From an uncultured Prochlorococcus sp. (GTDB lineage: Bacteria > Cyanobacteriota > Cyanobacteriia > PCC-6307 > Cyanobiaceae), in contig CACOIM010000007.1 in assembly GCA_902627325.1 (NCBI GenBank), positions 1 through 50,519 of the forward strand: 50,519 nucleotides of DNA, in the 5' to 3' direction. How positions within the stretch are numbered: position 1 is the first letter of the stretch; every line of letters begins with the position of its first letter. The notes under the pieces are model-generated. The model was not told the DNA's origin, did no database searches, and worked only from the letters and a program-made list of their open reading frames with translations. The translations under genes were made by a program, and so were the position numbers. This document shows positions 36,476 through 38,732 of the stretch, piece by piece.

Positions 36476-37966
36476 TTAATTAAGTTCATATAAAAATTTA
36501 TCTGCCACTTCGAAATGATGCTTTAGTTTTTCAGGTTTCATTTTGTCTAGATTTCTAGTCAACATGGATAGCCTATATTGTTTACTAAAGTATTTTCTAT
36601 AATCACTTATAAATTTCCAAAATAAAGCATCCCAAACCATACACCAATTATCATTTTTATAATTTGACATCTTTTTAATATAGTTTGATCCAGAAATATA
36701 TGGCTTTGTAGAAAAAATACCTCCATCGCTAAACTGACTCATCCCATAAACATTTGGGACCATAACCCAATCATAAGAATCAATAAACATTTCCATAAAC
36801 CATCTATATACTTCATTAGGATGAATTCTACATAGAAGCATAAAGTTTCCAAGAATCATTAATCTCTCAATATGATGACAATATCCAAATTGCAAAATAT
36901 TTTTTATAACATTATCAACTGGTTCAATCCCAGTTGTCCCTTCATAAAAAGAATTAGGAATTTTTTTATATTCGAAATTCCAGAAATTACTAGTTCTCAT
37001 TTTGACACCATACTTCTCATATGTAAGATTAATAAATTCTCGCCAGCCAATAATTTGCCTAATAAAACCTTCTAAAGAATTCAAAGGTATATTATTTTCT
37101 TTACCATAAATAATTGCTTTATCAATAACCTCTCTAGGAGTTAATAATCCAACATTCAATAGCATTGATAAAAGACTATGCCATAAAAAAACATCTTGCT
37201 TAGATATTGCATCTTCATAATCACCAAATAGAAAAAATCTTTCTTCGAAAAAATCATTCAACCAATCTCTAGCTTCCTTAAAATTTGTAGGATAACAAAA
37301 ATATTGGCTCGATCCTAAATATTTAATATCACTTTTTAAAATTAATTCTTCAGATTCCAAGACTATTTTATTTTTAGTTAATTTTTTTATATTTGGAACA
37401 TCAATATTTTTGGGAATTTTTTTTCTATTTAATTCATCAAAACTCCACTTTCCCCCCAAAGGTTTACCATCATCATTAATCAATATATTTTGACTACGTC
37501 TTTGCTCCTCATAGAATCTCCCCATTAAAGGTTTCTTAGAATTATTTTTAAACTTATTAATTAATTTATTTTCTGTAAGAAACATAGGAGACTCTAAATA
37601 ATTTATTTCCAAATTTTTTTCTTTAACAAAACCATTTAATCTTCTTTCAATGAGATAGTCATTAGGGTTAATTACATTTATTTTTTGATAATCTTCTTTT
37701 AAATATTTATATAAATAGTCTTTGGTTGAAAAGTTTTTTTGATTTGCAGCATAAATAATTTCATAGCCATTTTTTTTCAAATATTCTTTATAAGAATGCA
37801 TACTAGCTTTTAAAAAAATTAACTTATTTATATGGTTTTTAATTTGAAAATACTTATCATTACCCCAAAATAAAGAGTCTTCGATTATCAAAATTTCGCA
37901 ACTATAATTCAACAGAGGACTCAATTCAAATAATTGATTAGGAAAAATGATAGATATTTGCTTCAT
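36476..37966 (-). CDS. Photolyase/cryptochrome-related protein (FeS-BCP/CryPro-type family), apparently without the 4Fe-4S site
   Basis: The 496-residue protein belongs to the bacterial photolyase-related family that includes (6-4) photolyases such as PhrB. It has an N-terminal photolyase-related domain ([35 protein letters not shown]) and a C-terminal FAD domain. Family blocks are [54 protein letters not shown] and GSNYIKKMS. Relatives have YCxxC and ACPFN plus one earlier Cys binding 4Fe-4S; here the segment reads [16 protein letters not shown], keeping only one of them. The start at 37966 overlaps the DUF2256 stop codon (ATGA); an ATG at 37990 would overlap that gene by 28 bases. Light-driven DNA repair is likely; lesion type is unproven. 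Confidence 0.88.
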
Positions 37967-38094
37967 TTCTTTGATTTCCTTTTTCTGCACCTATTTGAGC
38001 AATATTTAACATCATCCCAACAATCATTCCATTTTTTTCTCCAATCAAATGATCTATTGCAAACTGGACAAATTTTATTTGGTAAATTTTTCAC
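37963..38094 (-). CDS. DUF2256 small zinc-ribbon protein (43 aa)
   Basis: A 44-codon minus-strand frame starts with GTG at 38094 and ends with TGA at 37963. The product contains C9-P-V-C12[10 protein letters not shown], then WDDVKYC32-SNRC36-RKRK. This is the DUF2256 pattern (CPVCxRxFxWRKKW ... W-x-x-V-x-Y-C-S-x-x-C-R), almost certainly a zinc ribbon. Another cysteine (C25) is extra. It starts three bases after the TIGR03643-like gene and overlaps the photolyase ATG by four bases, so the three are translated together. The function is unknown; as far as I recall, DUF2256 genes often accompany photolyase-related genes, which suggests a helper role. Confidence 0.88.
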
Positions 38095-38097
38095 AAT

Positions 38098-38334
38098 TTA
38101 AATTTTTCTTTTATGAGTGGACTTAAATCTAGATGAATCTTTTAATTTCATATGTTTTGTATTTCTGCCATTAACTCTTTCTCTCCAAACTATAAATGTT
38201 TTTCTTTTTAAATGTTTTCGCATAATTTTAATCGCATCTTTTTCTTTTAATCCAAATTGAAACTCTATGGATTCAAATGGAGTCCTATCTTCCCAGCACA
38301 TTTCAATGATTCTATCAATATCTTTAATATCCAT
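38098..38334 (-). CDS. TIGR03643-like small basic protein
   Basis: The 78-residue product (from ATG at 38334) reads IDRIIEMCWEDRTPFESIEFQFGLKEKDAIKIMRKHLKRKTF, then VWRERVNGRNTKH. This matches the TIGR03643 family of unknown function: a three-helix domain with a helix-turn-helix look (WEDRTPFxxIExQFGLxExxVIxxMR) and a very basic tail. ATG at 38334 is chosen over ATG at 38355 because it follows the DUF393 stop codon by two bases and is preceded by AGGA at a normal distance (8 bases). DNA binding is plausible from charge and shape but not shown. Confidence 0.85.
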   Translation of the reverse strand: MDIKDIDRIIEMCWEDRTPFESIEFQFGLKEKDAIKIMRKHLKRKTFIVWRERVNGRNTKHMKLKDSSRFKSTHKRKI

Positions 38335-38336
38335 CT

Positions 38337-38732
38337 TTATAGTCCTATTTTGCATTTTGATTCACATAATTTTTCTAAATTACCTCTGCCTGTTAAATTC
38401 AATCTATATTTGGCCCAATATTTATATAAAAATCTTATTAAATTTGAGAGAATTGGTAATTTTGATGGGTAATAAATCCAACCTAGTCCAACTAATTCAT
38501 ATGAATATGCTAGAACATCAATGCCATAAATAATTTCTCCGCTATTAAGAATCCCATGAAGATTTGACATAGCTGCTCGATAGGGAATATTTTTAAAATT
38601 TTCAGGCCTGTAATTAATACTAATATCAACAAAATTTATAAATTTATATGAATCTTTTTTCTTGAGAAATTTCGTTTCCCTAAGGCATAATGGACAAGCT
38701 CCATCGTATAAGAAAGTTAACTTGAAACTCAT
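38337..38732 (-). CDS. DUF393 (DCC family) thiol-disulfide oxidoreductase-like protein
   Basis: The 131-residue protein opens with LTFLYDGACPLCLRETKFLKKKD; the motif YDGxCPLCxxE (C13-x2-C16) defines the DCC/DUF393 family, a thioredoxin-like group. VDISINYRPENF and GVDVLAYSYELVG-type segments (here YGIDVLAYSYELVGLGWIYYPSKLP) also fit. Two further cysteines lie near the C-terminus (ESKCKI and EKLC). The start is ATG at 38732. It is the first gene of the four-gene cassette leading to the photolyase and ends two bases before the next start. A redox role for the cassette is possible. Confidence 0.85.
   Translation of the reverse strand: MSFKLTFLYDGACPLCLRETKFLKKKDSYKFINFVDISINYRPENFKNIPYRAAMSNLHGILNSGEIIYGIDVLAYSYELVGLGWIYYPSKLPILSNLIRFLYKYWAKYRLNLTGRGNLEKLCESKCKIGL

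Follow-up and report, generated by a model that had tools for sequence, protein, structure and literature searches.

The window analysed here is a 50,519-nucleotide stretch of DNA from an uncultured Prochlorococcus sp. (contig CACOIM010000007.1), in which four minus-strand genes are arranged end to end:

38337..38732, minus strand: DCC1-like thiol-disulfide oxidoreductase (DCC; DUF393, PF04134), first gene of the cassette, with a CxxC within GACPLC
38098..38334, minus strand: DUF2805 / TIGR03643 small basic protein with predicted HTH-like helices, recognised by its PF10985 and TIGR03643 scores
37963..38094, minus strand: DUF2256, a TRASH-clan zinc finger of 43 aa with CX2C...CX3C ligands and a GTG start, recognised by its PF10013 score
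36476..37966, minus strand: prokaryotic photolyase of the (6-4) type (PF04244), lacking the Fe-S ligands as in Phr2/PromaPL, recognised by its PF04244 and PF03441 scores

Both the tight packing of these genes and the family names proposed in a preliminary description of this DNA (DUF393, TIGR03643-like, DUF2256 and photolyase) were confirmed, the former by the coordinates and junctions and the latter by scores that all exceed the cut-offs. The DUF2805 ATG follows the DCC stop codon at a distance of +2 nt, the DUF2256 GTG follows the DUF2805 stop at +3 nt, and the TGA of DUF2256 overlaps the photolyase ATG by four nucleotides (-4, ATGA). The DCC protein scores 78.2 bits against PF04134 (cut-off 27.8) and contains the CxxC motif; DUF2805 scores 100 bits against PF10985 (cut-off 22.5) and 108.2 bits against TIGR03643 (curated cut-off 66.55); DUF2256 scores 70.6 bits against PF10013 (cut-off 25) and has the CX2C...CX3C ligands; and the photolyase scores 154.4 bits against PF04244 and 31.2 bits against PF03441, both above cut-off, which identifies the DPRP N-terminal and FAD-binding domains. 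The list of open reading frames offers other possible starts, namely an upstream ATG at 38355 for DUF2805 and a GTG at 37990 for the photolyase; in five same-genus relatives the earliest DUF2805 start is the ATG located 2 nt past the DCC stop. In the pairs listed, the small genes show purifying selection, with dN/dS values below 0.47 in all those where the ratio is defined (0.14-0.22 for DCC in window pairs) and dS near saturation in many of them. Scans for promoters (19 promoter-like sites vs 24.7 in shuffled sequences) and terminators (one terminator-like site, within the photolyase gene) were uninformative.

The closest solved matches to the window photolyase are PhrB (E 4.2e-69) and then other prokaryotic (6-4) photolyases. 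Alignment with PhrB reveals that the equivalents of His366, Tyr424 and Trp390 are retained, the catalytic His366 equivalent lying in the motif HH-I/L-x-RLM, and that the Trp342 position is occupied by Glu. The HH motif is present in 127 of 129 aligned PF04244 rows, which represent 121 distinct genes; of the two remaining rows, L251 is a real enzyme and L216_1527, a long-branch row reading A--H, is taken to be an out-of-frame ORF. The four Fe-S cysteines of PhrB, which we take to be Cys350, 438, 441 and 454, are replaced in the window photolyase by P, K, a gap and M, and since phmmer places one Cys at the last of these columns, at most one of the four ligands expected of an FeS-BCP is present. 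Among the 121 distinct PF04244 genes, cysteines occupy all four columns in 91, none in 29 and one in a single gene of incomplete sequence. Because of the P, K, gap and M readings, the window enzyme can be assigned to the known group of PF04244 enzymes that lack the Fe-S cysteines, the Phr2/PromaPL type, as described in the available parts of PMC9178010 and PMC9426592. It thus shares with PhrB of Agrobacterium fabrum and other FeS-BCP enzymes the PF04244 and FAD domains and the three residues mentioned above (PMC4619345, in part), and differs from them in lacking Fe-S ligands and in having Glu at the Trp342 position. His366 and Tyr424 are reported to be essential in PhrB (PMC4619345), and CPD repair by Phr2 was inferred in the mBio paper, in the part available, from the lost cysteines (PMC9426592). 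The retention of a PhrB-essential histidine in an Fe-S-less Phr2-type enzyme fits badly with that inference, and the conserved HH motif makes (6-4) chemistry the first candidate for the activity of the window photolyase.

Regarding the small proteins, DUF2256 had at first been called a zinc ribbon. A zinc finger of the TRASH clan is the better description, this being the clan to which the accessible part of PMC4047054 assigns the family. Its four cysteines (C9, C12, C32 and C36) are invariant and a WRKKW motif is also kept in the four sequences aligned. Fusions of DUF2256 to other domains were considered and none could be established, the long matches being artefacts of a scan without a reading-frame check. 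The AF2 model of DUF2805 (pLDDT 77.3, pTM 0.60) is helical, and the protein is described here as HTH-like on the basis of weak structural matches: the best Foldseek hit to known structures has an E value of 4.3 and is thus not significant, and the VIA comparison yields Z values of at most 4.1, with several HTH proteins among its 17 rows.

The cassette is real and conserved. The four-gene order is kept in all six sampled same-genus genomes bearing the enzyme, window included, at about 67% identity to the window photolyase, which points to more than chance. The +2 and +3 junctions occur in the six genomes and the -4 overlap in five, the sixth having +2 at the photolyase start. In the neighbouring genus g3, DUF2805, DUF2256 and the photolyase are found in this order in the four enzyme-bearing genomes, with DCC missing from the fetched stretch, and the fifth g3 genome (G286) lacks PF04244, DUF2805 and DUF2256 alike. 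The remaining 15 picocyanobacterial genomes that have both DUF2805 and the enzyme carry them on separate contigs or with 15 kb or more between them.

Co-occurrence was analysed in 151 genomes of the picocyanobacterial family, of which 82 carry PF04244, 74 DUF2256, 25 DUF2805 and 101 PF00875 photolyases (one of the latter, G231, scoring below the PF00875 cut-off). Within the 101 PF00875-bearing genomes, all counted as independent, DUF2256 is present in 73 of the 82 picocyanobacteria with the enzyme vs 1 of the 19 that have a PF00875 photolyase but not this enzyme, and, with the same proviso, DUF2805 in 25/82 vs 0/19; the Fisher tests applied to these counts likewise ignore kinship. DUF2256 therefore tracks this photolyase type, and not photolyases generally, also where the genes are unlinked. 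The association has exceptions, since 57 of the 82 enzyme-bearing genomes lack DUF2805 and nine lack DUF2256 (G165, G176, G208, G209, G210, G236, G237, G258 and G272; G176 and G272 are both 99% complete). In genus g116, G220 and G245 have the DUF2256 and photolyase genes on separate contigs, and G185 (95% complete) and G265 (76%) have neither gene. The sole case of DUF2256 without a PF04244 photolyase among the 151 genomes is G168, where the gene (L351:3772-3882) immediately follows one that by eye looks ClpP-like.

A quick photolyase tree was built from 78 of the 129 rows, after removing five by hand and retaining every third unlinked Fe-S row; it contains long branches and raised letter-make-up warnings, the window row being among those warned. 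In this tree, the window enzyme clusters with the Prochlorococcus-like and picocyanobacterial enzymes, the PromaPL/Phr2 group, and the 10 Prochlorococcus-like rows form the sister group of 11 rows from picocyanobacteria without the cassette (SH-aLRT 98). Because of this sister group, the cassette was probably built in, or retained only by, the Prochlorococcus-like line, and horizontal import of cassette and photolyase together is not favoured. Parsimony on the 78 rows gives 9 changes for DUF2805 adjacency and 8 for DUF2256 adjacency, figures that count changes and not gains; of two Fe-S changes on the tree one is likely real, because the L216_1527 row is included.

The preliminary description had proposed that the small genes work with the photolyase, with flavin or redox support, recognition of damage or assembly of a complex as conceivable tasks, and had thus expected them beside this enzyme family elsewhere. 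This holds in part: DUF2256 and DUF2805 adjoin PF04244 photolyases in beta- and gammaproteobacteria, in two other cyanobacteria and in two Bacteroidota genomes, in many gene orders, but DCC linkage is rare and many copies of the two other genes stand apart from the enzyme. Within the cyanobacterial phylum, 146 genomes were searched, with DUF2805 in 27, DUF2256 in 65 and PF04244 in 42. A photolyase adjoins DUF2805 in 4 of the 27 fetched loci (window not counted; G107 and G137 are picocyanobacteria), and across the 30 DUF2256 loci fetched from other cyanobacteria (L032-L061) no PF04244 photolyase was found within 1.5 kb of the gene. These two counts speak against a universal cassette. Two side observations come from the same loci. 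An isoaspartyl peptidase-like gene, named by eye, is near DUF2256 in 19 of the 30, and in L187 (G048) DUF2805 adjoins a short PF04244 match in a 78-residue frame, which looks as if the enzyme had decayed while DUF2805 remained.

Outside the cyanobacteria, the DUF2805 sample consists of the best 80 of 582 matches to a query headed by a protein from an Acinetobacter plasmid; it leans to gammaproteobacteria, includes six Polynucleobacter and several Acinetobacter loci, and 19 of its 80 stretches are incomplete. Both DUF2256 and a PF04244 photolyase are present in 12 of these best 80 loci (all three genes are found, for instance, at the Polynucleobacter loci L144, L149, L150, L155, L169 and L176), and a photolyase or cryptochrome of any kind lies within 5 kb of DUF2805 in 22; in the other 58 no photolyase was found within 5 kb, a figure that includes incomplete stretches. 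PF04244 occurs in 24 of 29 DUF2805-bearing genomes searched; these derive from 30 loci hand-picked among the best 80 of 582, and in four the enzyme was known beforehand to be linked. In the 20 loci fetched from such genomes (L250-L269, of which L261, L264 and L268 duplicate loci of the best-80 sample), DUF2256 adjoins the photolyase in 10 and DCC in one, L256. Apart from the Prochlorococcus-like group, L256 is the sole case of DCC-photolyase linkage among all fetched loci. Separately, DUF2805 is followed by DCC in L188 (G105, a cyanobacterium) and L109 (Burkholderiaceae), stretches in which no PF04244 photolyase was found. Twelve linkage orders or orientations were seen altogether; as the flanks are short, some may be fragments of others, and the arrangement and linkage counts enter some genomes two or three times.

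Support for an association with the photolyase is thus good for DUF2256, fair for DUF2805 and weak for DCC. Since the first two are also found next to, or along with, such photolyases in further groups of bacteria, they may be helpers that have so far gone unrecognised, and the reading we prefer, at a probability of roughly 45%, is that DUF2256 and DUF2805 are small DNA- or protein-binding accessory factors of the PF04244 photolyase family. In the proposed model, the locus would be a repair operon of Prochlorococcus-like cells organised around the Fe-S-less (6-4)-type photolyase Phr2/PromaPL. The TRASH-clan zinc finger DUF2256 and the basic, HTH-like DUF2805 would bind DNA or the photolyase and help the enzyme to find, hold or be recruited to lesions, and DCC would be a lineage-specific redox addition. 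Gene order, tight junctions, purifying selection, multi-order linkage and the co-occurrence of DUF2256 with the enzyme are the observations that support such an accessory role; a single transcript, physical contact and a role at DNA or lesions are what we infer from them. Against it stand the 58 photolyase-free loci among the best 80 of 582 DUF2805 matches, the viral DUF2805 genes that occur alone (see below) and the grouping of DUF2805 with translation domains, and not with repair, by abundance correlation across marine metagenomes in the part available of PMC3597751. Furthermore, phr2 of RS9916 by itself confers light-dependent protection in E. coli according to the available part of PMC9426592, and helpers are therefore not obligatory there.

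The main rival, which follows close behind and is a serious though lesser possibility, is that of shared regulation only, i.e., that the small genes belong to a light or UV response and are co-expressed with photolyases without acting on the enzyme. Bacteroidota loci (the best 30 of 80 matches, which come from 73 of 247 genomes; flanks of 1.5 kb, and one member of each neighbour cluster named by Pfam) provide an argument for it. In these best 30 loci, SDR-type (13) and FolE-type (5) genes recur near DUF2805, and a photolyase or cryptochrome lies within 1.5 kb in 11, of which two, L287 and L292, are of the PF04244 type. This composition recalls the LitR-controlled light-inducible gene sets of Pseudomonas, which hold PhrB, CryB, FolE, SDR and genes of unknown function (PMC9758184, in part). 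The presence of DUF2805 on viral contigs with no photolyase nearby also agrees with this reading. However, picocyanobacterial DUF2256 follows this photolyase type and not photolyases generally, even when unlinked, which speaks against shared regulation only.

The viral copies bear as well on a stricter form of the accessory reading, in which DUF2256 and DUF2805 would be dedicated DNA-handling accessories of PF04244 (6-4) photolyases and phages would carry DUF2805 by itself to have their DNA repaired by the photolyase of the host; we consider this unlikely. DUF2805 was found in 77 IMG/VR contigs, and in 76 of them (L361-L436) no partner gene was detected in stretches of at most 4 kb on each side, 17 of the 77 loci being shorter than 8 kb. 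Seventy-four of these 76 have the full DUF2805 domain and two, L435 and L436, a truncated frame only. The single contig with partners, L360, shows the layout seen in Acinetobacter. L361 closely resembles it in sequence, and a bacterial origin is thus possible for both. The retention of DUF2805 without a neighbouring photolyase in viral contigs weakens the reading of this protein as an exclusive partner of the enzyme. For the window DUF2805 and for one of the viral copies, neither a PHROGs family nor a match among annotated phage records was found, and the window photolyase has no match in these records either; a pattern scan of the viral contigs confirmed none of window photolyase, DUF2256 or class-I photolyases, and PF04244 enzymes at large were found in 6 viral contigs.

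Somewhat less probable still is that DUF2805 regulates the transcription of photolyase operons locally, as a protein with an HTH and no sensor domain. Its predicted helices are HTH-compatible and the weak structure matches include Lrp-like, TnpE, resolvase and homeodomain structures, but the Foldseek search gave no significant match. Local regulators are usually encoded divergently from their targets, and yet DUF2805 is itself one of the operon genes in Prochlorococcus, and on the Acinetobacter plasmid it is convergent to DUF2256-photolyase. A function of the small proteins in loading or repairing the flavin, the antenna or an Fe-S cluster seems very improbable. The CxxC of DCC and the FolE-type neighbours in 5 of the best 30 of 80 Bacteroidota loci are consistent with it, but the full cassette sits with an enzyme that lacks Fe-S ligands, and Fe-S assembly or insertion is therefore unlikely, an argument that leaves the flavin and antenna part unaffected. 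Linkage occurs both without the ligands (12 of 30 photolyase genes) and with them (23 of 91), in a sample enriched for linked loci, and Fe-S maturation as the joint role was dropped as a main idea. Chance packing is just as improbable: Prochlorococcus genomes are compact and 15 picocyanobacterial relatives have DUF2805 and the enzyme well apart, but recurrent linkage in other groups far exceeds the approximately 0.7 of 80 and 0.1 of 30 loci expected by rough arithmetic (3 photolyase genes per 4 Mb, independent genomes).

To our knowledge, photolyases are regarded as self-sufficient one-protein repair enzymes, and we know of no helpers of this kind for any other photolyase. A helper role, if true, would provide a testable function for the unassigned families DUF2256 (zinc finger) and DUF2805 (HTH-like), and could bear on the Fe-S-less (6-4)-type enzymes of phototrophs in the sunlit ocean. 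No published link of DUF2805/TIGR03643, DUF2256 or DUF393 with a photolyase was found in a search whose scope left most subscription journals outside, nor does one appear in the accessible parts of PMC3597751, PMC11796252, PMC4047054, PMC8612252 and PMC9239080. The available portions of the PromaPL and Phr2 papers (PMC9178010, PMC9426592) do not mention the small genes, and phr2 of RS9916 is located downstream of uvrC there (mBio paper, PMC9426592). The LitR/CarH light-inducible clusters of Pseudomonas resemble the present locus in having photolyase genes beside redox genes and genes of unknown function, although the part of PMC9758184 available identifies none of the latter as DUF2805 or DUF2256. 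Similarly, the Nudix-photolyase operon of Prochlorococcus MED4 and the two-photolyase operon of Synechococcus PCC 7335 are cyanobacterial photolyase operons, but with other partners, and DUF2805, DUF2256 and DCC are not described for them in the corresponding part of PMC9649867.

Finally, the 76 partner-free viral loci, which hold 51 distinct DUF2805 proteins, have neighbours of their own. Matches to tail fibre, GroEL and thymidylate synthase lie near viral DUF2805 in three example loci, and a gene of the flavodoxin-fold reductase group (one member named by Pfam, PF02525) directly adjoins DUF2805, on either side, in 19 of the 76 loci and 11 of the 51 proteins. Tight pairs of DUF2805 with a flavodoxin-fold reductase-like gene, in either order, are seen at L404:3413-4219, L386:3372-4216, L410:3407-4222 and L362:3986-4820.
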